From: Fibrobacter sp. UWR2
GTDB lineage: Bacteria > Fibrobacterota > Fibrobacteria > Fibrobacterales > Fibrobacteraceae
Length of the DNA: 64,000 bases
Reading direction: 5' to 3'
Assembly (NCBI RefSeq): GCF_002210285.1
Contig: NZ_MWQE01000001.1
Coordinates: 186,001 to 250,000 of the forward strand
A model generated the notes under the pieces. It worked only from the letters and a program-made list of their open reading frames with translations, searched no databases and was not told where the DNA came from. Positions within the stretch are counted from its first letter, which is position 1, and each line of letters opens with the position of its first letter. Positions 18,474 to 43,021 of this stretch are shown piece after piece. The position numbers and the translations under genes are program-made.

Positions 18474-21242
18474 ATGGTGTGTAGGTCCACTCTTGTAACA
18501 CTCTCTTTGTTGACGGTGCTTCTCGCGGCATGTTCGGACGATAGCGGATCGGGCTCTTCCGTCGAATTGCCCGAAAGTTCCGCCTCGTCATCGGTTCCCT
18601 TTGTGGGGGGCTCCCCGGTGGTGGTGACGGAAGTGGACCCGGTGAATACCACTTTTAAGGATCATGAGGGTGGCGATGCCGGCTGGGTGGAGTTCTTCAA
18701 TCCGTCCGAAACGCCCGTAAACCTTGCTGGTCTCTACTTGACCGATGACCTTTCGCAGCCTAGGAAGTGGGCTTTTGGGAACGTTCCTGTGCCGCCGCAG
18801 GGGTTCATGGTGCTGTTTCTTTCGGGGAAAGACTTGCCCGATTACGAGGCTCCCCATGATTCAGCAGATTTGATTGGTCATGGATGTTGGACCTGGACTG
18901 ATTCGCAAAATGAGCCCGTTGCGGGCGAGAGCCGTGCGGATAATCTCCCGGGCAAGTCAAAGATCTGTTTTGCTGAAAATGGGAGCCAGGCTTTCGGGAG
19001 CAGCATGCAGTACGGTGTGAACGAGGAACTGGGGTGGACATCGATTTCAGTCTTCGTGGGGACGGGGTCGTCCTCGAAAAATGATGTGCTCGACATCTCG
19101 AATGCGAACGAGATTCTTTTGACGGGATTTGTGACGGCGGGCCGCAAGCTTTCGCTTAGGCTCGCGCAGCCCGATGTAGATGACTGGCTTGGGTGGGAAT
19201 CTGTCATCGAGGGTACGGGCGATTCCAATACGACGTATACTATCGCTCTTCCGCAGGGGACTAAACTCCCTGACCTCGAGAACATCTACGGTACGCGATT
19301 CAGCCCGGAATCGAACGAGACGAAGGAGGTCAACATGAAGGTGACCTCGTACATAGCTCGCAATCGCGGGCACGAACCGCATGCGAACTTCAAGCTGCAT
19401 CACAAGGGCGGGAGCCTCTACCTGATGAATGAAGACGGTGCTATTGTGGATTCCGTCGCATACCCTGCGATGCCTGTCGGTAAGACGTGGTCATTCGGTG
19501 TATCGCCTGCAGGTGCGGCGACCTATGGCTTCGCGGACCCGAGCCCTTATGGTGGAGCCTTCTCGTCGGTTGTTTATTCCGAACGTTCTCCGGTAGTTTC
19601 CGATAAGATGCCTCCCTCGGGTTTTTACAAGGAACCGTTCTTCGTGACTTTCTATACCGATGAGGAGAGCAATGCGCACGTGCGTTGCCGGGAAGGTGGA
19701 GCGTTGCCCGATGCGAGCCAGCCCGAAACAATGGGCCTGACTGTTTCTTCTACGACAGTTTTGCGCTGCGCCTCCTTTATGCCGGGAAAGTATCCGGGCG
19801 ACGTGGAAACCCGTACCTACGTATTCGAGGACCAGCCGACGATTGCCTCCGTGTTCATTACCGCAAATCCGCTTTCGCTGTTCGATCCGGATACGGGCCT
19901 CTACATGGATGGCCCCGATGCGCAGGCAAAGGAGCCGCATTACGGTGCGAACTACTGGTCCGACCGTGAACTCCCCGCATTTGTGGAACTTGTTGAACCC
20001 GGTGGCAGTGAACCCGGATTTGCGAAGGATGCTGGCTTCCAGATTTTTGGCAACTACAGCAGGGCCCGCGAGAAGAAGTCTGTCGCTATCGTGTTCCGCG
20101 AGAAGTACGGCGACAAGCGCCTGGAATATCCGCTTTTCCCTGCATATCCGGAACTGAACAAGTTCAAGAGTTTTATCCTGCGTACGGGCAATTTCGGGAT
20201 GGACTACATCCACGATGACCTAGCAAGTTCGCTTTCCGAAGGCCTCGGGGTCGATTACCAGCGGAGCAGACCGGCAATCGTCTACTACAATGGCGAGTAC
20301 TATGGAATCCAGAATATCCGTGAACGCTCGAACCGTTACTACTTCGAGACGCATTACGGCTACGATCCGGACAACATCGACCTTCTGAAGGCGGATAACT
20401 CGGCAAGCAGTGGAGAGTCTTCGGACTATACCGAACTTTTGGACTGGATGGAAATGCACCCGCTCGATGATGACGCGAATTACCAATATGTGGCGTCGAA
20501 GATTGATATAGACAATTTTATCAACTATCAGCAGACGGAAATTTACGCGAATAACCGCGACTGGCCCTCGAACAACCTGAAAAAGTGGCGTGTGCGTAAC
20601 CCGGCTTCTCCGTGGAGGTGGTTCCTGTACGACATGGATTTCGGATTCGGGAACGATATGAGCGAGTACACGAACAATATATTTGAGTTTGCTGCCGCCG
20701 AGGATGGCGAAGACTGGCCGAATGGCCCCAAGTCGACCTTCCTGTTCCGGAAATTGCTAGAAAACAAGTCGTTTACGAATAAGTTTGTGAACCGTATGTC
20801 GGCGCTCCTTTCTATGAACTTCGAAAAATCTCGCGTACTTGCCCGCATAGAGGCGATGATGGATGAGATTTCAGCCGAGGTGGGGCGCGACCAGAAACGT
20901 TGGGGCCATAGTGCAAGCTGGATGGGAAAGGTGCTTGATGGTATGAAGGATTTTGCGGAAGAGCGCCCCGGTGTCCTCTATAGTGAAATGCAGGAATTCT
21001 TTAATCTAGATGAAATCGTCTCGGTGACACTTTCTGCAAACGGAAATGGACGTGTGCTTGTAGACGGCCTCCCGCTCGACAGTCCTTCGCTGAAAATCAA
21101 CTTCTTCAAGGGCACGCCGGTTACCCTATCTGCAGAGGGAATTGGCGGAGGGATATTTGCCGGTTGGAGCGACGGCGTTATGGAAGCCTCCCGTACGATT
21201 CTGCCCGAAGAAATCGATGCCCTGACGGCGACATTCAAGTAG
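18474..21242 (+). CDS. LTD-CotH family lipoprotein
   Basis: A 922-residue lipoprotein (signal VTLSLLTVLLAAC). Domains in order: a lamin-tail domain at ~40-130 (GWVEFFNPSETPVNLAGLYL ... LFLSGKD), further beta-rich regions, and a chitobiase-C-terminal-like Ig domain at ~375-440 (SGFYKEPFFVTF ... HVRCREGG). A CotH kinase-like domain spans ~465-800, with FQIFGNYSRAREKK and the metal-binding YDMDFGFG. A C-terminal InlB-type repeat (GNGRVLVDG ... IFAGWSDG ... LTATFK) ends the protein. CotH domains phosphorylate secreted proteins in spore formers; their role in Fibrobacter is unknown. A paralogue with the same order is at 40752. Confidence 0.87.
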   Translation: MVCRSTLVTLSLLTVLLAACSDDSGSGSSVELPESSASSSVPFVGGSPVVVTEVDPVNTTFKDHEGGDAGWVEFFNPSETPVNLAGLYLTDDLSQPRKWAFGNVPVPPQGFMVLFLSGKDLPDYEAPHDSADLIGHGCWTWTDSQNEPVAGESRADNLPGKSKICFAENGSQAFGSSMQYGVNEELGWTSISVFVGTGSSSKNDVLDISNANEILLTGFVTAGRKLSLRLAQPDVDDWLGWESVIEGTGDSNTTYTIALPQGTKLPDLENIYGTRFSPESNETKEVNMKVTSYIARNRGHEPHANFKLHHKGGSLYLMNEDGAIVDSVAYPAMPVGKTWSFGVSPAGAATYGFADPSPYGGAFSSVVYSERSPVVSDKMPPSGFYKEPFFVTFYTDEESNAHVRCREGGALPDASQPETMGLTVSSTTVLRCASFMPGKYPGDVETRTYVFEDQPTIASVFITANPLSLFDPDTGLYMDGPDAQAKEPHYGANYWSDRELPAFVELVEPGGSEPGFAKDAGFQIFGNYSRAREKKSVAIVFREKYGDKRLEYPLFPAYPELNKFKSFILRTGNFGMDYIHDDLASSLSEGLGVDYQRSRPAIVYYNGEYYGIQNIRERSNRYYFETHYGYDPDNIDLLKADNSASSGESSDYTELLDWMEMHPLDDDANYQYVASKIDIDNFINYQQTEIYANNRDWPSNNLKKWRVRNPASPWRWFLYDMDFGFGNDMSEYTNNIFEFAAAEDGEDWPNGPKSTFLFRKLLENKSFTNKFVNRMSALLSMNFEKSRVLARIEAMMDEISAEVGRDQKRWGHSASWMGKVLDGMKDFAEERPGVLYSEMQEFFNLDEIVSVTLSANGNGRVLVDGLPLDSPSLKINFFKGTPVTLSAEGIGGGIFAGWSDGVMEASRTILPEEIDALTATFK

Positions 21243-21261: not shown

Positions 21262-21289
21262 AGACCCGTCGACAAAAGCCGACGGGTCT
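21262..21289. terminator. Hairpin between convergent genes
   Basis: Perfect 10-bp stem AGACCCGTCG/CGACGGGTCT (21262-21271, 21280-21289) with an 8-nt loop, lying between the LTD-CotH gene and the minus-strand operon. T-tracts are short on both sides, so it is a weak bidirectional terminator. Confidence 0.65.
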
Positions 21290-21315: not shown

Positions 21316-21546
21316 TTACAGCTTCTGATGCTTTAAACGCTCTACTTCTCTATTGGCCATGTCTAGTTTCTGTAGTTTCTCGATGATGGGGGCGCACTGG
21401 CTTTTGTCCATATTGAAGTTTGTTCCGCAAATAGGACATTTTACTGAAGTACCGCAGAGAAAGTCGTGCAGGCTTAACTTGATGTACCCCTTTTGGCAAA
21501 CAGGGCACGGAACTCCGGTTGGTGAATTGTATGTTTTTTCGTTCAT
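21316..21546 (-). CDS. Small zinc-ribbon protein
   Basis: A 76-residue protein with two CPxC knuckles (PCPVCQKG and KCPICGTN) about 25 residues apart, the arrangement of a four-Cys zinc ribbon. A charged helical tail follows (IIEKLQKLDMANREVERLKH) that could be a short coiled coil. The ATG at 21546 lies 2 bp beyond the stop of the upstream DUF2589-like gene, so it is the last gene of that operon. Function unknown; a role as adaptor or regulator of the neighbouring proteins is a guess. Confidence 0.78.
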   Translation of the reverse strand: MNEKTYNSPTGVPCPVCQKGYIKLSLHDFLCGTSVKCPICGTNFNMDKSQCAPIIEKLQKLDMANREVERLKHQKL

Positions 21547-21548
21547 GG

Positions 21549-22442
21549 TTATTTTACGTAGTAGTAGATGTCGACGCTGACTGTTGAACCATTGCTGTGA
21601 GTGAAAGTGACTTTCTGTGATGAACCATGCTTGACTTGTCCCTTGTTCTTGATGCTCGCGACCCATGGAATTCCGCCCTGTTCGTTGGTGACCACGCTGA
21701 GTCCGCTACCCCAGTGTTTTTTGTCGTTTGAGAGCGAGAGACCTGTGGATTCGTCGTAGTAGACCGTGACAAGTTCGTTCGCGACGCCCTGATTAGTTAA
21801 GGGGTCTTTCAACTGTAGGAAGGAATCGTTTCCCTTTCCGATTTCGACCTTGACGGTCTTGTCTTGTGGACAAATCTCTGCTGTAGAAATATTCTGTGCG
21901 TTGGCGCCCATCATTGCCAGCAGGTTGCTTAATCCGGCAGGCATGTCTGCTTGGACGACCTTCACTTTGACGTTTATATTGGCGTCGAGATGTGGGCTGT
22001 TGGGATTGCTTGGGCTATTCTTCCCTTTTTGCGGAGCCAGGGTGGCGATAATATTTTTTTTGATTAAATCGGGAGAATTCTCGTCTATTTGTTTTGTAAG
22101 ATCATTGACAGAATCGATGATCCGGACACAAAAATCAAAATCTGCATTGTCTACGTGGAGAAGTGGAAGAGGAATCAAGGACAATGTGGGAATAGACATC
22201 GCCTTTGTCTCGATTTCGCCGTTTGCTCCAGTTTGCGTGTAACGGAATGTAGTCTTTTTTAGATCTCCGATAATATTGGTGTCTTTTGGCTCCGGTTGGG
22301 GCTCGCCCGAGTGTACAGGTTCTTTGCTGAAGCCATACTCGCTAATGAATTCAGCGGTCCTTCGCGCAGCCATGTAATCTGCCGTGATGATGGCATCGAT
22401 GGGTGTAAAGAAGATGTTTTCAAGGGTTGCTGTTTGTGACAT
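21549..22442 (-). CDS. DUF2589-like protein with C-terminal Ig-like region
   Basis: A 297-residue protein without signal peptide. The N-terminus (ITADYMAARRTAEFISEYGF) matches ITAQAMAAKSTWEFIQQVGL in the protein at 23225-24193. The strand motif PLLHVDNADFDFCVRI (93-108) and the segment VVQADMPAGLSNLLAMM also match that protein. The C-terminal ~110 residues look like a beta-sandwich (ELVTVYYDESTG ... KHWGSG ... YYYVK). A strong AAGGAGG precedes the ATG. The resemblance to DUF2589 is from memory of that family; function is unknown. Confidence 0.72.
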   Translation of the reverse strand: MSQTATLENIFFTPIDAIITADYMAARRTAEFISEYGFSKEPVHSGEPQPEPKDTNIIGDLKKTTFRYTQTGANGEIETKAMSIPTLSLIPLPLLHVDNADFDFCVRIIDSVNDLTKQIDENSPDLIKKNIIATLAPQKGKNSPSNPNSPHLDANINVKVKVVQADMPAGLSNLLAMMGANAQNISTAEICPQDKTVKVEIGKGNDSFLQLKDPLTNQGVANELVTVYYDESTGLSLSNDKKHWGSGLSVVTNEQGGIPWVASIKNKGQVKHGSSQKVTFTHSNGSTVSVDIYYYVK

Positions 22443-22451
22443 GGAGCCTCC

Positions 22452-23165
22452 TTAGTCAACTATGACGAAATCGCCGCCACTAGGATTATGCGGATTCTCT
22501 ACCCAGCGATAATTTTCCAGTTTGGTGGTTATGTGGAGTGTCTGGATAACTTCCGGTGACAAGCCGGACAGAGTCGTACCATCTACGATTACTTCAAGTT
22601 CACCGATTTGCTCAGCAGTGAAGTTTTCGATATTCTGACGCTCATTGGTGATGATATCGGACAAGGCCTTCTTTTGACTTGAGGAAATTTCTGTATCCCC
22701 TAGGAGGGAGGAACTCAGAACCTTTGCGACGGCCGTAGAAGTGTCGTCCGCAGATTTCTTTTCGATACCGGATGCGTAGAGTGTTTCCTGCACTCGTGAT
22801 ATCAGTGCTTTCCGTTTGATATCGTCATCGAGTATGAGCGCTTCCTTTTCGGGGAGGCTTGTACGCAGTTTGTCGATTAGTTTTTCGGCTGTAGCTTGGT
22901 TTGCAGACCTGTTCAGCGTTATCTGCGGTTCGATGGACTGGAGTTTTTTTGTCGTGTTGAGAGTGTTACCCTCGATAAATTCCTCTACGGCATAACGCAG
23001 AGTTATGTCGACTTCGGACATGACTGCGTTTGGCAATTGGAGGTATTTGAGCAGTTCATCTTTGCTGTACTGCTTGGCAAGTTTGCTGGTGGTGAGGTTA
23101 CTCTGGTGTTGTGCGCTATCAATAGCATTGAGGATGGAAGCAATAACAGTTTTTAACTTAGGCAT
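22452..23165 (-). CDS. Unknown protein of the DUF2589-like operon
   Basis: A 237-residue, mostly helical, polar protein with no signal peptide or membrane segment. Residues 45-60 (PNAVMSEVDITLRYAV) align without gaps to the P-x-x-x-h-x-x-x-x-I/F-x-F strand motif of both DUF2589-like neighbours, so it may be a diverged relative. The C-terminus ends in a DGTTLSGLSPEVIQ segment. It is translated from an ATG with no clear Shine-Dalgarno, downstream of a stem-loop at 23186-23213 that separates it from the first gene of the operon. Confidence 0.7.
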   Translation of the reverse strand: MPKLKTVIASILNAIDSAQHQSNLTTSKLAKQYSKDELLKYLQLPNAVMSEVDITLRYAVEEFIEGNTLNTTKKLQSIEPQITLNRSANQATAEKLIDKLRTSLPEKEALILDDDIKRKALISRVQETLYASGIEKKSADDTSTAVAKVLSSSLLGDTEISSSQKKALSDIITNERQNIENFTAEQIGELEVIVDGTTLSGLSPEVIQTLHITTKLENYRWVENPHNPSGGDFVIVD

Positions 23166-23185
23166 GTTTTTAGATGGGGGTTATA

Positions 23186-23213
23186 CCCCGGACAGGGAAA
23201 AACCTGCCCGGGG
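23186..23213 (-). promoter_or_regulatory. Intercistronic stem-loop in the DUF2589-like operon
   Basis: Stem CCCCGG-CAGG pairs with CCTG-CCGGGG around a GAAAAA loop (one internal mismatch). The CCCC at 23186-23189 can alternatively pair with the GGGG at about 23176-23180. It sits 11 bp after the stop codon of the first gene and 20 bp before the next ATG, so it could stabilise or attenuate the message. Confidence 0.55.
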
Positions 23214-23224
23214 TTGTTTATAGT

Positions 23225-24193
23225 TTAGGGGTTATTCGAATTGTTTTCGATTGCTTTGACTTCGTCAATGAGAATTTCTGACTTGACCTCCTGATTATTG
23301 AGGGTGCTGGTAATCTGGAGAATCATCGGTGGAATGTTCTTTGCGTCAGGGGCAATTGAAATATAGAGTGTTGTAAAGCCATCTGCCAGAGTGATTTCTT
23401 CGTTTGCAACGACCGGCTTCTTGATGTGGTCGTAAGTGATGGTAAGTCCTTCAAAGTTGCCGGAACCGGATGCCGTAACGGGGTTAATCTTGATTTTTTG
23501 GCCTTTGGCGTAGAGGCCGCTTGCTGTTTTGAGCGCGATACGGCAGGCAATTTCTTCGTCGAATCTAGGTGTAATTTCTCCCTGCTCGACCTCAATTTTT
23601 CCGTTGACGCCGGCATCGGCTGTGGCGGCCATGGTCAGGATGTTGAGTACGGTTGCAAGTCCGGCGGGAACGTCGGCTTGTGTTGCGTGAACGCTGACAT
23701 CCTGTGTGTATTCTACGGAGTAACGTGATTCAGAAGTTGCCTTTGAATCTTTTTTACTAGAGTAGTTCGCCTTTGCTGTGATGGAAAGGCTGAATGGTCC
23801 CCAACCCAATTTGGCCTTTGCTTCGCCCCCAACATCCAGCGCAGTGGATTCGGAATTCTCGGTGCACTGCGAAGAAGATGCGTTGATGGACGCCTTGAAG
23901 TCGATTTGAACCTTGTCGATAACGATCATCGGAATGGGGACGATTGTCAGAATCGGGACAATCATCGTTGTTAGGTTGCCGTCTTTTTGATATGTGAATG
24001 TAACATTTACAGCTTCCTTATTTCCGTCAGCATTGGTGTTCAATCCAACTTGCTGAATGAATTCCCAAGTGGATTTTGCAGCCATTGCTTGTGCTGTGAT
24101 TGCAGCCTGAAGCGGACCGCCGATGAGGGCGCTGTAATCAATTCCGTTTAGCATGTTCTGCGCAACGGTGCCGGGGGTTGTATCTATTGCCAT
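23225..24193 (-). CDS. DUF2589-family protein
   Basis: A 322-residue protein without signal peptide. The N-terminal helix pair (YSALIGGPLQAAITAQAMAA) and the following beta motif PMIVIDKVQIDFKASI (88-103) are typical of what I recall as DUF2589. A charged SSKKDSKATSESRY loop, then TQADVPAGLATVLNILTMAA, and a C-terminal Ig-like region (~215-310) follow. AAAGGAG is well placed before the ATG. It is the first gene of a four-gene minus-strand operon that is visibly AT-richer than its neighbours. Molecular role unknown. Confidence 0.78.
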   Translation of the reverse strand: MAIDTTPGTVAQNMLNGIDYSALIGGPLQAAITAQAMAAKSTWEFIQQVGLNTNADGNKEAVNVTFTYQKDGNLTTMIVPILTIVPIPMIVIDKVQIDFKASINASSSQCTENSESTALDVGGEAKAKLGWGPFSLSITAKANYSSKKDSKATSESRYSVEYTQDVSVHATQADVPAGLATVLNILTMAATADAGVNGKIEVEQGEITPRFDEEIACRIALKTASGLYAKGQKIKINPVTASGSGNFEGLTITYDHIKKPVVANEEITLADGFTTLYISIAPDAKNIPPMILQITSTLNNQEVKSEILIDEVKAIENNSNNP

Positions 24194-24491
24194 GTTCGTC
24201 TCCTTTATGTGGCTGTTGTTGAATAGATGTGTTTTAATTTAAAAAAACATTTTTTAAAAGCAAAAAAATATGTATGTTGTGAATTTGTATGTGTTTTTTT
24301 TAACAAAGTTTATTTATAATTTTGATGTGTGTGACTTTGTGCTACTATGTATAATGATATGTAGTTTGTATGTAAAAATGTTTTTGCGACATTCGTTTAT
24401 ATGTAATAAAAATATTACTTGAAATGCCTTGACTAATAGTTATAATTACATCGTAAAAAATTTTTTGGGCTCTTTTGCAGAGGAGTACGCG
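24194..24491. other. AT-rich divergent intergenic region
   Basis: About 300 bp of strongly AT-rich DNA between the DUF2589-like operon (minus) and the antitoxin-like gene (plus). It contains T- and A-runs and a good plus-strand promoter at 24419-24446. The minus-strand promoter cannot be placed with confidence. No coding potential seen. Confidence 0.6.
24419..24446 (+). promoter_or_regulatory. Promoter of the antitoxin-like gene
   Basis: TTGAAA (24419-24424), 16-bp spacer, TATAAT (24441-24446); the start would be near 24453, leaving a ~39-nt leader with GAGGAG about 6 nt before ATG 24492. Confidence 0.7.
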
Positions 24492-24662
24492 ATGGCTGTG
24501 GTCAGTGTACGAATGGATGATGAAACAAAGAAACGGTTCGACGAATTTTGCAGTTCCGTAGGAATATCGATTTCTGCGGCTGTAAACATGTTCGTGAAAA
24601 TGACTGTGCGCGAGAACCGCTTACCATTTGATGTTAAGGGACACCCCTCTGAACATCATTAA
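24492..24662 (+). CDS. RelB/DinJ-family antitoxin-like protein
   Basis: A 56-residue ribbon-helix-helix protein: VVSVRMDDETKKRFDEFCSSVGISISAAVNMFVK is the DNA-binding N-terminus typical of RelB/DinJ antitoxins, followed by TVRENRLPF. The ATG at 24492 follows GAGGAG; a TTG further upstream is inside the promoter and was rejected. Such proteins normally pair with a YafQ/RelE toxin, but no toxin ORF lies on either side, so it is an orphan antitoxin, a remnant, or a stand-alone regulator. Confidence 0.82.
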   Translation: MAVVSVRMDDETKKRFDEFCSSVGISISAAVNMFVKMTVRENRLPFDVKGHPSEHH

Positions 24663-24813: not shown

Positions 24814-26184
24814 ATGAATTTCAATACTAAGATCCTTTGCATTGGCGCGGGCTACGTCGGCGGCCCCACTATGACTGTTATTGCCGACAAGTGCCCCGAC
24901 GTGAAGGTTACCGTAGTCGACATTAACCAGGCCCGAATCGATGCCTGGAACAGCGACAATCTCCCGATTTTTGAACCCGGCCTTGATGACGTGGTCAAGC
25001 GTGCCCGTGGCCGCAACCTGTTCTTCAGTACGGATATTCCCTCCGCTATCAAGGAAGCGGACATCATCTTCGTTTCCGTGAATACCCCGACCAAGACGTT
25101 TGGCCATGGTGCCGGCAAGGCTTCGGACTTGCAGTACTGGGAAAAGACTGCCCGCAACATTCTTGAAATTGCCGACGAGGGCAAGATTATCGTCGAGAAG
25201 TCGACCCTCCCGGTTCGCACCGCCGCCGCGATGGAACGCATTTTGAACAGCAACGACAAGGGCCTGCATTTCGAAGTGCTTAGCAACCCCGAGTTCCTTG
25301 CCGAAGGCACTGCCATCAACGACCTGTTTGAGCCCGATCGGGTACTCATTGGCTCCCACCAGACGGAATCTGGCCTTGCCGCCTGCCAGAAGCTGGTGGA
25401 CGTGTATGCCCACTGGGTGCCGCGTGACCGTATCCTCACGACGAACCTCTGGAGCTCCGAACTCACGAAGCTCACCGCGAACGCCTTCCTGGCCCAGCGC
25501 ATCAGTTCCATCAACTCCATCAGCGCCCTCTGCGAAAAGACCGGCGCCGACGTGGACGAAGTCGCCTATGTGATGGGCAAGGACCGTCGCATCGGACCGA
25601 AGTTCCTCAAGGCCTCTATCGGCTTTGGCGGTAGCTGCTTCAAGAAGGATATCCTGAACCTCGTGTACCTGTGTGGCTACTATGGTCTCCCCGAGGTTGC
25701 CGCCTATTGGGAAAGTGTCGTGAAAATCAACGAGTGGCAGACCCATCGCGTGGTGGACCGCATGCTTGAAACCATGTTCAATACGATTGCGGGGAAGAAG
25801 ATTGCCGTGTTTGGATTTGCCTTCAAGGCGAACACGGGCGATACCCGCGAAAGCCCTGCGAACCTCGTGGTCCGTGATTTGCTCGCCGAACATGCACAGC
25901 CGGTCGTGACTGACCCGAAGGCTATCCCCGATGCCAAGCGCGACCTGAAGGACGTTCTCGATCAGGTTCAGTTTGAGGAAGACCCGTACAAGGCGGCCGA
26001 AGGCGCTCATGCTGTAGTTGTCTGTACCGAATGGAAGTGCTTTGCCGAACTCGACTGGAACCGAATCTATAAGGGCATGGCTAAGCCGGCTTTTGTGTTT
26101 GACGGTCGTAATATTCTTGATGCCGACGCCCTCCGTAAGATTGGTTTCGAAGTGTCGTCTATAGGCAAGGGTAAAGCAGAGTAA
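24814..26184 (+). CDS. ugd: UDP-glucose 6-dehydrogenase
   Basis: A 456-residue enzyme that oxidises UDP-glucose to UDP-glucuronate with two NAD+. The N-terminal Rossmann fold starts [13 protein letters not shown]; the catalytic Cys is Cys275 in [27 protein letters not shown] belongs to the C-terminal UDP-binding domain. The pattern ([21 protein letters not shown]) is close to the animal-type enzyme. The start at 24814 was chosen over an upstream TTG because the NAD-binding motif must begin there. No Shine-Dalgarno is seen; TATTTT lies 9 nt before the ATG. First gene of the polysaccharide locus. The 24663-24813 gap holds a CAGTAC/GTACTG hairpin (24713-24731). Confidence 0.94.
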
Positions 26185-37879: not shown

Positions 37880-40738
37880 ATGACTAGATGGACGCCTTTT
37901 TTTGTTCTCTGGCTTCTCACATTTTTCTTTGTTATTGCTTGCAGCAATAGCGCGTCTGAGTGTATGGAAGGAGAGGGCGCGGTGGACTCGTCCAGTTCCG
38001 AGGCATCTGAGAATATTCCCGAAATAGAAGGAATGATTGTTGTCCGTGGCGGTACGGTGACACTCGGTAGCGATGACACGAAGTACAGGCCATCGGAACG
38101 CCCCGCCATGAAGGTCCGCCTGGACTACGGCTTCAATCTTGGCATACACGAGGTGACCTGCGGGGAATACCGCGACCTTGCGAAGAAGATGAGCCTCAAG
38201 AAATTCGGCAAGTGCGAAAATGATAGCCTGCCGCTTTCCGACGTCACCTACTACGATGCGGTACTCTTCGCAAACGCCAAGAGCAAAAACGGGAAAAGCG
38301 ATACGGCCTACGCCTACGGCAACGCGGTGTACGATGCCGAGGGCCACTGCACGAACCTGGAAGCGCTCGTGTTCCACCCCGAAGTAGAAGCATACCGCCT
38401 GCCGACCGAGGCGGAATGGGTGCTCGCCGCATCGCAGGGCTGGAACCCCGCGAAGTACAGCTGGAATGCGGACAACTCGGAATACCATGCGCATGCTGTC
38501 TGCAGTGCGGGCGCGGATACCCTCGGGTTCTGCGATCTCGCGGGTAACGTGAAGGAATGGGTGAACGACTGGGCCGGCAGCTTCTTCGACACGACGGTCA
38601 CGAACTACCTGGGCGCACCCGACGGTGGAGATCTCGGCGAGCGCGTGCTGAAGGGCGGCTACTTCTCGGAAAGGGTGTCCGAGATGAACGTCGTCGCCCG
38701 CGGTGACGACTATACCGTGGTGGGCTCCAGCCGCGCCGAACGCATCGGGTTCAGGCTCGCCTTCGGGCGCATCCCGGACCCCGTATGGCTCGACGCCAGC
38801 GGGCACGCGAAAGCGAGCGTCGTCACGCCGCTTGCCGGCGCGACGTCACTGAAGGCCCGTACCGGGACCTACAACATGGTCCTCGCCTTCCGCAACGACA
38901 TCAGCGGGAATCTCGCCTACATCGACTACCGCGACGGAAGCCTTTCCGTGACCGAGATCGACGACTCCCTGGATGTCTATCATCCGGACATATCCCCCGA
39001 TGGCAGGCGCGTGGCCTTCTGTACCGGGCTCGAGGGTGTCGCGGGCAAGTCCGCGCTGTACGTGCGCGACCTGGATGCCGAAGGGGGCAACCTCGTGAAA
39101 CTCGACGTCGGGAGCGCCGCCATCCCGCGCTGGCGTGTGCTCGGGAGCGGCGACACCGTGATCGTCTATGTGACCGACGCGGGCAACAACAAGGACGAGA
39201 CCGCGTTCAGAAGCGCTTCCACATGGCAGGTCAAGTTCGCCGCAGGCAAGTTCGGTACGCCGGAAAAACTCTTTGACGGAGCCTTTCACGGCGGCATCAG
39301 CGAGGACTACACGCTCGCCGTTACGGGAGCGCGGCTGCTCCGCGCCCGCGTCGCCGATGCCGGCTCGTCGCTCACAGAAAATGCCCGCAACGTTATCTGG
39401 TACGACAGTGCACAGGCCTGCAACGCGTCGCTCGCGCAGGACGGCAGCAAGCGTACCGCGTTCCTCGACTTCGGCGGAAAACCCGGCCGCAAGTTCGCCG
39501 GGGAGGACTACGCCACGCACGAACGCATCCTTGTCGCCGACAGTAGCGGGAAACTGGTGCAGACCCTCAAGGCGCCTGCTGGCTACACGTTCGACCATAG
39601 CGAATGGGCGAGCGACGGCGTGACCTCGAACATTGTGGCGACACTTGCGAATGCAGATGGCGCTCATACGAGAATCGTGCTCGTGAGCCCCTCCGACAGC
39701 AGCGTCCTGGAACTCGCCGCAGGCGAGGAAATCTGGCACCCGTGCCTGTGGGTCAATCGCAATGCGTCAAATTTTCCCTCCGATGCTACGCAGGCCGATG
39801 ACTCTACTGGAACAGGCCGTGCCTTCATTCCAGATCTGGATTCTGCAGGGATTTACTTTTTGCCTGGCGGTGATGAGGAAAGTATCATATGGCGATACAA
39901 GATGGAATTGCTGTGGGAATATAAGGATTTGGCCGATGTCGTTGTCTTGGGGTCATCACGAGTGCTTTATGGAATTGACCCGACATTGTTTTCTGAGGAC
40001 CATCTTGCGATTAGTATGGCTAACTTGCACAATACGATAAAGGGGTCAAAGTATATTTTCGATAATTATGTAATTACGCATATGAAAAACTTGAAATATG
40101 TTGTCTTGGGTGTTGATATTGATCGAGGATATTTGGTTTCGGGAAATAGTTTCTTCCATAAAAAATACAAGGAAATACCCGGTTTTTCTTATGATGTAAA
40201 TCATCAGTACTGGAAAAATCAGTCTACGGATTTTATGGTTGAAGCCGTGAGGAATGCTCCTGGTTCAACGAAATATTCAGAGATCATTTTGCCTACGCGT
40301 GGACATTTTAAATACACGTCATCTAGTGGGTGGGGATCTTCTCCTACTGTGAAGAATGATAGTTCTTGGTATGATGAGAATCCCAAGTTGTACTACGACA
40401 ATTTTCAGGTTTTGGAAGATTTTATAAAAAAATGTCAGGAAAGAGGTGTCTATATTATTGGAGTTATTTTGCCGCAAAGTCCTGACTACAAAAATACGGG
40501 CGCTTTTGGCTTTGGAGGCATTAGAAGGAGTGTTGCGCCGGATTTGATAGAAGAAATATCTGGTTTGAGCGATAAATATTCGAGATTTATCTTGTTGGAC
40601 GAAAATAAAATGGGAAATCACGATTATACAAGTGAAATGGCTCTTGACTGTAGTCATTTAAACCATGCTGGTGCCGAACAGTTAACTCACCGTATCGATT
40701 CTCTCATCAAGACGTTGAATATTGATTTTGATAACTAA
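37880..40738 (+). CDS. Fibrobacter paralogous lipoprotein (TIGR02171-like): FGE-like, propeller and SGNH-like parts
   Basis: A 952-residue lipoprotein (signal PFFVLWLLTFFFVIAC). Residues ~50-295 resemble the formylglycine-generating-enzyme/sulfatase-modifying fold (MVVRGGTV-like start, YRLPTEAEWVLAASQG, GFCDLAGNVKEWVNDW, ERIGFRLAF). Residues ~310-630 look like TolB-type propeller repeats (YHPDISPDGRRVAFCTG). The C-terminal ~270 residues look like an SGNH hydrolase: VVLGSSRVL with Ser692 and DCSHLNHAG with Asp923 and His926. Length and architecture match my recollection of Fibrobacter family TIGR02171, function unknown. Codon use changes from GC-rich to AT-rich at about 39760, within the gene. 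Confidence 0.8.
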   Translation: MTRWTPFFVLWLLTFFFVIACSNSASECMEGEGAVDSSSSEASENIPEIEGMIVVRGGTVTLGSDDTKYRPSERPAMKVRLDYGFNLGIHEVTCGEYRDLAKKMSLKKFGKCENDSLPLSDVTYYDAVLFANAKSKNGKSDTAYAYGNAVYDAEGHCTNLEALVFHPEVEAYRLPTEAEWVLAASQGWNPAKYSWNADNSEYHAHAVCSAGADTLGFCDLAGNVKEWVNDWAGSFFDTTVTNYLGAPDGGDLGERVLKGGYFSERVSEMNVVARGDDYTVVGSSRAERIGFRLAFGRIPDPVWLDASGHAKASVVTPLAGATSLKARTGTYNMVLAFRNDISGNLAYIDYRDGSLSVTEIDDSLDVYHPDISPDGRRVAFCTGLEGVAGKSALYVRDLDAEGGNLVKLDVGSAAIPRWRVLGSGDTVIVYVTDAGNNKDETAFRSASTWQVKFAAGKFGTPEKLFDGAFHGGISEDYTLAVTGARLLRARVADAGSSLTENARNVIWYDSAQACNASLAQDGSKRTAFLDFGGKPGRKFAGEDYATHERILVADSSGKLVQTLKAPAGYTFDHSEWASDGVTSNIVATLANADGAHTRIVLVSPSDSSVLELAAGEEIWHPCLWVNRNASNFPSDATQADDSTGTGRAFIPDLDSAGIYFLPGGDEESIIWRYKMELLWEYKDLADVVVLGSSRVLYGIDPTLFSEDHLAISMANLHNTIKGSKYIFDNYVITHMKNLKYVVLGVDIDRGYLVSGNSFFHKKYKEIPGFSYDVNHQYWKNQSTDFMVEAVRNAPGSTKYSEIILPTRGHFKYTSSSGWGSSPTVKNDSSWYDENPKLYYDNFQVLEDFIKKCQERGVYIIGVILPQSPDYKNTGAFGFGGIRRSVAPDLIEEISGLSDKYSRFILLDENKMGNHDYTSEMALDCSHLNHAGAEQLTHRIDSLIKTLNIDFDN

Positions 40739-40751
40739 GGCTTGGCACGCT

Positions 40752-42998
40752 ATGAGATGTTTGCTGATTTGCTTATTCCTGCTTGTCGTTGCCTGCAGCA
40801 ACAGCGATTCGCTGGATATTTCCAAGGATGATTCCGACAATTCTGCTACGGGATATGACGAAAATGCAGAATCTACGTCTGGCAAAGAGGATACAAATGA
40901 ATACTTGGATACAAGTGATTTGCAACCCTTGGAAATTTCTGAAATCCTGACGCACAATCTAGACTGGGTTGACGAATACGGGGAAACCCCAAGTTGGATA
41001 GAAATATACAACCCGAACAATTGCCCGTTTTCTTTAAAGAACTTCTATTTGTCGAATGATTCTGCCTTGGAACAAAAGTGGCGGTTCGGCGACATTGTAA
41101 TCAAGGCCAATTCATATAAAGTTTTTTTCTGTGACAAAAAGAATACTGCGAACCATACCAGTTGGAAATTGAAAGAAAATGGTGGAACAATCTTTCTGCT
41201 AGATTCCTTGCTTAATGTAGTCGATTCCGCCTCATACCCAGATCTACCTTCGGGAGTCAGTTTCGGTAAAAACAAAAAAAAGGTTTGGGGGTTCATTTCG
41301 GCTCCGTCACCGGAAGCTGTAAATAGGAATTCGACTTGGTACAGAAATCTAAGCGAGGAAGTTTCCGTCGAACCAGATGCGGGCTTTTACTCGGAACCCA
41401 TAACAATACAACCACCTGCAGTGAATTCTTCGGGGACGGTCCGTTGTACTCAAGACGGGAGTATCCCCGATAGCCTGTCTCCTATTTTTGATGCGCCCAT
41501 CACTATACGGCAAAACACAATATTGCGTTGTGGTCTTTTTAAGGCGAAAACACTCACAAAGTCGATTATGACAAATTCCTATTTCATCGGCGAAAATACA
41601 AAGATGTCGATTGTTTCTATTAGCATCGATCCAAAATTCTTCGAAGAAACCTATTATTACAACAACCATTCTTGCAATAACCCGGATCCCGATGCCGGCT
41701 ACCTCAAAGACACCGAATATCCAGTTCATGTGGAATACTTTGAAAATGGTGTAGAGTCCAAGGAAAGGGCCTTTGAAATTGATGCCGGTTTAACCATTGG
41801 CGGCAACTGCACCCGCTATTTGCCCAAGAAGTCAGTCGATATAAAAATGCGTGAAGACTATCAAGACGGAAGACTCCAGTATGCTCTTTTTGATGTCCGG
41901 CCTGAAAAGAACATATTCAAGGCTTTCCGCCTGAGAAACCTCGGAAACCGATACAGTCAAGATTTCTTTGGCGATGCGGCCTTTACAAGCCAACTCGAAG
42001 GTACCGGTGTGGACTACCAACGCCATCATCCGGTTCTCGTTTTCTACAACGGTGAATTCTACGGAATCCACTACATTCGCGAAAAGCTCAATAGATACTA
42101 TATCGAAACGAATTACGGAATAAAGGCAGAAAATGTCACCGTCGTAAAACACATTAACAACAGCTTCGAAGGTGACTCCTCGGGGGAATATGAAAGTCTA
42201 ATCAGGTGGATTGCAGAATCGGACTTGTCCGATAGCCTGTCGTACAATTCTATACTCCAGCGAATGGATCTCAACAACTTTGCGAATTACATGGCCTTCG
42301 AAATTTACAGCCTCAATGACGATTGGCCAACAAATAATGTCCGTGTATGGAAGGCGAAAAATACCCCTTGGAAATTCATGGCTTACGACATGGATTGTGG
42401 TTACGACAAGGACTTGCCATCATGGGAAAATAGCGACAAGAATATTTTCAATTGGATTAGGAACAAGTCGACGGAGCGTTCCTTTGCTCAAGTCTATACG
42501 AAGCTCATTCAAAACAAGGATTTCAAGAGAAAGTTTATCAACCACTCCGCAATAATGTTCAATAGCTACCTAACCGAGAAAAAAATATCGACTATAATTC
42601 AAAAATTGAGAAAAACCATAGAATCCAAGCAAATGGATAGGGACAAGCAGAAGTTCCCTAGAAAATCGTCGAAGGATGGCGACGCCATTATACAGTGGGC
42701 TAAGGAACGCGATGTTTCCGTTCGAGAGGATTATAGACAAGAATTCAATCTCGGCAAGGATATTGCCATAACGCTATTTGCGAAAGGACGTGGGAAAATT
42801 ACCGTAGACGAAATGGAACTGCCTGTTGATTCCCAATCGGATGGCTATGAATGTACTTTTTTTGAGGGAAACGACCTTCTTCTAGAGGCCGTTCCGCAGG
42901 GCGGAAGCGTGTTTGCCGGATGGTCCGACGGAAGCTTCGAAAATCCGCGCCTTGTATCACCCGAGGGAGACTCTACTTTTACGGCCATATTCAAATAG
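40752..42998 (+). CDS. LTD-CotH family lipoprotein
   Basis: A 748-residue paralogue of the 18474 gene. The lipoprotein signal MRCLLICLFLLVVAC is followed by SNSDSLDIS, shared with the 43065 gene. Domains: lamin-tail (TPSWIEIYNPNNCPFSLKNFYL), chitobiase-C-terminal-like Ig (GFYSEPITI ... VRCTQDGS), CotH (LTIGGNCTRYLPKK, FYNGEFYGIHYIREKLNRY, MAYDMDCGY) and a C-terminal InlB-type repeat (GRGKITVDEM ... VFAGWSDGS). The ATG at 40752 was preferred because it begins the lipoprotein signal. It lies 13 bp after the TIGR02171-like gene. AT-richer than the housekeeping genes. Confidence 0.87.
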   Translation: MRCLLICLFLLVVACSNSDSLDISKDDSDNSATGYDENAESTSGKEDTNEYLDTSDLQPLEISEILTHNLDWVDEYGETPSWIEIYNPNNCPFSLKNFYLSNDSALEQKWRFGDIVIKANSYKVFFCDKKNTANHTSWKLKENGGTIFLLDSLLNVVDSASYPDLPSGVSFGKNKKKVWGFISAPSPEAVNRNSTWYRNLSEEVSVEPDAGFYSEPITIQPPAVNSSGTVRCTQDGSIPDSLSPIFDAPITIRQNTILRCGLFKAKTLTKSIMTNSYFIGENTKMSIVSISIDPKFFEETYYYNNHSCNNPDPDAGYLKDTEYPVHVEYFENGVESKERAFEIDAGLTIGGNCTRYLPKKSVDIKMREDYQDGRLQYALFDVRPEKNIFKAFRLRNLGNRYSQDFFGDAAFTSQLEGTGVDYQRHHPVLVFYNGEFYGIHYIREKLNRYYIETNYGIKAENVTVVKHINNSFEGDSSGEYESLIRWIAESDLSDSLSYNSILQRMDLNNFANYMAFEIYSLNDDWPTNNVRVWKAKNTPWKFMAYDMDCGYDKDLPSWENSDKNIFNWIRNKSTERSFAQVYTKLIQNKDFKRKFINHSAIMFNSYLTEKKISTIIQKLRKTIESKQMDRDKQKFPRKSSKDGDAIIQWAKERDVSVREDYRQEFNLGKDIAITLFAKGRGKITVDEMELPVDSQSDGYECTFFEGNDLLLEAVPQGGSVFAGWSDGSFENPRLVSPEGDSTFTAIFK

Positions 42999-43021
42999 TC
43001 AAAGCGGTTTGCCCGCACCGC

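Follow-up and report, generated by a model that had tools for sequence, protein, structure and literature searches.

DUF2589 (PF11655) is a Pfam family without an assigned function. In the literature searched it receives one passing mention only, for a run of short DUF2589-related genes in Archaeoglobus fulgidus, AF0414-AF0417, that is up-regulated on lactate (PMC3949148). The operon described here can be likened to that run by description, although the latter is archaeal and has been reported only as lactate up-regulated; the multi-gene architecture of DUF2589 operons, their X relative and their zinc ribbon are not described in the literature searched. Holin-endolysin pairs offer a functional likeness, since many operons of the family join small proteins that are not enzymes to wall hydrolases without a clear signal peptide; however, the transmembrane helices typical of holins are missing from the DUF2589 proteins, they are cellular rather than phage proteins, and the copy studied here has no hydrolase beside it. 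Bacterial gasdermins and protease-activated pore systems are a further lead for comparison with DUF2589 operons. A few loci do pair DUF2589 with trypsin-like or subtilase proteases, but no similarity of fold to those pores was found and proteases are a minority partner of the family.

Gene layout and the kinship of A, B and X

The window, by which we mean the whole 64,000-nucleotide stretch of Fibrobacter DNA analyzed, carries at 21316-24193 four tandem minus-strand genes in the order B-X-A-zinc ribbon, separated by gaps of 59 bp (B-X), 9 bp (X-A) and 2 bp (A-zinc ribbon), in agreement with a first-pass annotation of the letters that had proposed a four-gene operon closing with a small zinc ribbon. 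The B protein (322 aa; 23225..24193, minus strand) belongs to the B subfamily of DUF2589 and contains an N-terminal helix, the strand motif discussed below, a GWGP-containing insert, the segment QADVPAGL and a C-terminal extension of ~120 aa that is absent from a shorter Bacteroidota copy. X (237 aa; 22452..23165, minus strand) has an N-terminal helix followed by the strand motif, without the first hairpin, and then a C-terminal part of its own. The A protein (297 aa; 21549..22442, minus strand), of the A subfamily, combines a helix, the strand motif, QADMPAGL and a C-terminal extension. The last gene (21316..21546, minus strand) encodes a 76-aa CxxC...CxxC protein, CPVC-x19-CPIC, whose four cysteines are invariant in homologues from three phyla and which matches no Pfam family above its cut-off.

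Both B (E = 1.7e-25, 90.6 bits) and A (E = 3.6e-15, 57.1 bits) lie well over the PF11655 gathering cut-off of 23 bits and are thus members of the family, so that the earlier label of "DUF2589-like" was right for these two proteins though too weak. Against subfamily profiles made from related loci, the B gene product gave 3.8e-31 with the B family and 1.1e-8 with the A family, and the A gene product gave 4.5e-20 with the A family and 2.1e-11 with the B family. X falls short of the PF11655 cut-off and has no Pfam match at E ≤ 1; its kinship is visible as remote homology by profile-profile comparison only, and we therefore class it as a relative rather than a member of DUF2589.

That annotation had further held that the three proteins share one 16-residue strand motif, and the motif lies exactly where it was placed: P88-I103 in B, PMIVIDKVQIDFKASI; P93-I108 in A, PLLHVDNADFDFCVRI; and P45-V60 in X, PNAVMSEVDITLRYAV. 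On the window sequences alone, A and B resemble each other more than shuffled sequences do (0 of 500 shuffles reach their score), but the X motif is not above chance, its BLOSUM62 scores of 21 with B and 4 with A standing against a mean best score of ~28 for shuffled sequences. A position-specific score built from the A and B motifs did not separate X from background either and was set aside for profile comparison. With relatives from other phyla in the profiles, including Bacteroidota homologues of X in the X family, hhalign gave scores of 30.3 and 30.2 for the X family against the A and B families, and 60 column-shuffled decoy alignments for each comparison reached maxima of 12.8 and 16.7. 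The alignment is collinear: the helices and the motifs fall on one another, and X lacks the first beta hairpin. In Fibrobacter, Bacteroidota and Spirochaetota, homologues of X are encoded next to DUF2589 genes or between them. The cross-phylum profiles thus show that the motif had been read correctly, even though the window could not by itself prove the case of X. Judged from these sequence profiles, X is a shortened DUF2589 relative, and A, B and X are built on one common unit. Two smaller details fared differently: QAD(V/M)PAGL is indeed present in two proteins, while the helix reported as AMAA-x-x-(S/T)-x-EFI reads MAA-x-x-T-x-EFI in both, AMAA being true of B only and A having YMAA.

AlphaFold modeled the window B with a mean pLDDT of 54 and a canonical B with a pLDDT of 66.5, and the cores are resolved but the central insert is not. 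The canonical model has one long helix, four main strands, of which the third holds the motif, an insert that is rich in serine and of low confidence, and a final helix. The C-terminal Ig-like regions once ascribed to two of the proteins find no backing, as there is no Pfam match at E ≤ 1 and the B structure there is of low confidence. A sequence search of solved structures returned nothing convincing; Foldseek gave a best match of E = 2.9 in the PDB, with no delivery, shell, tail or filament protein, and only one homologue among viral models. By hydropathy, A, X and the zinc ribbon have no clear transmembrane helix, and the one hydrophobic stretch of B is modeled largely as sheet strands.

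Between B and X lies a hairpin (23185..23214, minus strand) with a 12-bp stem, a 6-nt loop and a folding energy of -25.4 kcal/mol (z = -5.3), a feature that the first-pass annotation had not mentioned, any more than the wall-hydrolase link described below. All four Fibrobacter operons keep this hairpin, with stems of ~12-14 bp that differ in sequence and z-scores of -6.4, -6.2 and -8.0 in the three relatives. Since no U-tract follows it in the window, it is more likely a transcript stabilizer or processing element than a terminator; an Rfam search gave no match near threshold. At 21263..21288, where the operon gives way to the plus-strand gene that flanks it, an inverted repeat read directly in the sequence (GACCCGTCG / CGACGGGTC) is a possible bidirectional terminator, and it is missing from the consensus-scan list. 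At the other end, the AT-rich region 24194..24485, of low GC, is the presumed promoter region; the consensus scan found no minus-strand sigma-70-like site in it.

Conserved gene order and acquisition of the cassette

The order B-X-A-zinc ribbon recurs in four genomes of the genus Fibrobacter (the window genome, G029, G033 and G148) and in one genome each of Bacteroidota (L147) and Spirochaetota (L208), which bears out the conserved neighborhood that had been proposed as a check on the annotation. All four zinc-ribbon cysteines are invariant across these loci and a related B-A-zinc ribbon-A2 layout. Elsewhere the core takes other forms. Lachnospiraceae, Treponema, Chitinispirillales and Brachyspira-like spirochaetes combine A and B with a small protein and one of 93 aa; Vibrio plasmids carry A-B-93-aa, and many Bacteroidota have B-X-Y. 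In the genome-collection scan, 76 of 80 loci had both A and B. Within the phylum to which the window belongs, 10 of 168 genomes had DUF2589 matches, as did 19 of 297 sampled Bacteroidota, 13 of 296 sampled Spirochaetota and 2 of 300 genomes from the phylum of a Gastranaerophilales genome, and most Fibrobacterota and Spirochaetota genomes with a match held at least two copies. No convincing fusion of DUF2589 to another domain was seen among the loci collected. At the Brachyspira-like loci, the surroundings of the operon are conserved and of a housekeeping kind.

In the window, a CotH-like gene ends at 21242 and a nucleotide-sugar dehydrogenase gene starts at 24820. In eight relatives the former lies directly before the latter, compared with the ~3.4 kb between them here, and the other Fibrobacter carriers have the operon at different sites. 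The operon is therefore an insertion, an acquired cassette, as its base composition, its opposite strand and the neighboring orphan antitoxin had led the first-pass annotation to propose. It is AT-richer than its surroundings (GC 0.470, flanks 0.533 and 0.505), and 8.5% of equal-sized stretches of the window have GC as low; at 40001-43000 the GC of the window falls to 0.39-0.44, below that of the operon. We regard the identity of the cassette and its acquisition as practically certain. In the genes compared, amino-acid changes lie far below synonymous changes, which are often saturated, and the genes are thus under purifying selection.

Divergent from the operon stands a RelB/DinJ-type antitoxin gene (24486..24662, plus strand; TIGR02384, 56.2 bits against an NCBIfam cut-off of 45.65), with no RelE-type toxin gene adjacent to it, its neighbors being the DUF2589 operon and the nucleotide-sugar dehydrogenase gene. 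The orphan antitoxin noted earlier is thus real, but it cannot reliably be counted with the cassette: the orthologues nearest to it (78% identity) are found at other places, some of them in genomes that have no DUF2589, and on these grounds we rejected it as a cassette component. We take it for a bystander that is probably not part of the system. Related orphan RelB genes also occur near the operon in G033 and G148.

Association of DUF2589 loci with wall hydrolases

Of the 80 loci, 51 have a gene of the Amidase_2/phage-lysozyme cluster on the same strand and no more than 2.5 kb away, at a median gap of 44 bp. In Lachnospiraceae and Treponema, an Amidase_2 gene, with or without a phage-lysozyme domain, is usually found near A or B. 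In a sample spread over lineages, the commonest Pfam families at most two genes from the core were Amidase_2 (7 of 147) and Phage_lysozyme (4 of 147), each of which had at most one member among the 135 background genes lying five to nine genes away. The enzymes near A/B pairs come from at least seven unrelated families of peptidoglycan hydrolase (Amidase_2/phage lysozyme, M15, PF11860 muramidase, GH108, GH19, CHAP and M23). M15 occurs in Chitinispirillales and at one Bacteroidota locus, the PF11860 muramidase on a deltaproteobacterial plasmid some genes away, and CHAP in Bacteroidota; a GH108 endolysin is found together with DUF2589 and the 93-aa protein on one viral contig, a GH19 gene precedes the B-A pair in G100 (locus L115), of the window's family and a different genus, and an M23 peptidase gene directly follows the zinc ribbon in the Spirochaetota B-X-A-zinc ribbon locus L208. 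These data establish that the DUF2589 family is associated with wall hydrolases. Hydropathy revealed no clear signal peptide in the neighboring hydrolases, by a simple test in which a few annotated starts are uncertain. A few Bacteroidota loci have a subtilase, a trypsin-like protease or a patatin.

The association is not universal. No wall hydrolase lies beside the window operon, and none is adjacent in G029, L147, the Brachyspira-like loci or several Bacteroidota loci. In G033 and G148 a truncated Amidase_2-like frame adjoins B, of a family that is intact elsewhere in the genus; no such amidase remnant was found in the window. Amidase_2-like frames lacking their N-terminal part lie beside the operon at L016:10204-10680 and L114:6104-6529, in two genomes of the genus Fibrobacter. 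The only Amidase_2 gene of the window genome was considered as a partner and dismissed, the same type being present in a relative without DUF2589.

A proposed role and its rivals

Because relatives of the cassette repeatedly adjoin wall-cutting enzymes, it may have a part in their handling or delivery. We propose that B, X, A and the zinc ribbon would make one cytoplasmic hetero-oligomer in which B, A and X are each built on a long helix and a small beta sheet and the zinc ribbon would serve as a small accessory subunit; in the second widespread architecture, a different protein of ~93 aa would take the equivalent place. That B, X and A assemble together, as the first-pass annotation had suggested from the motif, we consider likely. 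The B message is probably protected by the hairpin that follows its gene, and B would be in excess over X, A and the zinc ribbon; we infer this excess, and likewise the stoichiometry of the complex. In the wider family, the complex would hold a wall hydrolase without a signal peptide in the cytoplasm and, when triggered, would help it across the membrane to the wall, much as a holin serves an endolysin; a DUF2589 complex may thus, by analogy, work like a holin-endolysin pair without being one. As no hydrolase lies beside the window operon, the window copy would depend on a hydrolase encoded at another place or work without any. We advance hydrolase handling or delivery by a DUF2589 hetero-oligomer, together with its conditional extension to the window copy, as a tentative reading to which we give a real but less than even chance. 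More doubtful is the general form of the idea, a new cross-phylum chromosomal machine for delivery or lysis: two or three related subunits would form a soluble hetero-oligomer that brings cytoplasmic wall hydrolases of interchangeable kinds, and at times proteases or lipases, to the envelope. A family known by number alone emerges here as a multi-gene system, conserved in gut and environmental bacteria from several phyla, whose link to wall-cutting enzymes without an obvious export signal is both recurrent and swappable, and its operons are a concrete gene set for asking how such enzymes reach the wall outside phage lysis.

The varied partners would also suit an abortive-infection type of defense, in which DUF2589 proteins that sense an infection would set free or switch on a cytoplasmic effector, be it a wall hydrolase, a protease or a patatin, and this effector would kill the infected cell. 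The partners include a subtilase, a trypsin-like protease and a patatin that matches defense effector models, the operon is patchily distributed and acquired, and a few neighbors are defense genes (a JetD-like protein in L028, AbiE genes in L022). We nevertheless think this unlikely. None of the PADLOC models fits A, B, X or the 93-aa protein, and for the zinc ribbon there is only a marginal match to a candidate model (E = 0.009); the housekeeping setting of the Brachyspira-like loci also counts against a defense role. Similarly improbable, in our judgment, is that the hydrolase link is limited to the A/B/93-aa branch and that the B-X-A-zinc ribbon branch of the window does something else, such as chaperoning another client. 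The missing hydrolases of the window, G029 and L147 agree with such a division, as do the differing architectures with a zinc ribbon in place of the 93-aa protein, but the M23 gene of the Spirochaetota locus, the GH19 gene before the B-A pair at L115 and the truncated amidase-like frames of G033 and G148 speak against it.

Two or three paralogous subunits, no recognized catalytic family, a hairpin compatible with B in excess and endolysin-like partners without clear signal peptides would fit a structural or storage assembly (a filament, shell or inclusion) in which the common strand unit would let B, A and X copolymerize and the hydrolase would serve to release the assembly by lysis of some cells. 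The structure searches, however, gave no similarity to known shell, tail or filament proteins; we hold this account to be quite unlikely. Least probable is a phage-derived lysis cassette with DUF2589 in a phage lysis module, for which the viral contig with its GH108 endolysin and the endolysin-like character of several hydrolases might be cited. Five scans of 2.9 million viral contigs found DUF2589 on that same one contig, 50,697 phage records yielded one weak match, no PHROG matched, and the family sits in ordinary chromosomes of several phyla; with this near absence from viral and phage collections, we discarded a phage origin as unsupported.

Several loci carry further genes around the core. 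At ~23 Lachnospiraceae and Treponema loci (L037, L057, L061, L078, L087 and others in L025-L104), the amidase gene is closely preceded by one for a tyrosine recombinase, perhaps a promoter invertase. In many Lachnospiraceae (L041, L058, L072, L086, L091 and others), the operon is followed by genes for a STAS protein, a GNAT-like protein and a large PP2C-type-phosphatase-like protein, possibly a partner-switch control. Directly behind the B-X-Y operon at L148:5076-6332 and L156:9381-10643 comes a subtilase gene and then one for a protein of 67 aa, possibly a stand-alone inhibitor of proteases. Treponema-type loci include fascin-like proteins (L031:3602-4081, L034:6893-7372), and a gene with an eCIS-core domain and an AHH nuclease (L115:9427-10209) converges on the GH19-B-A locus.
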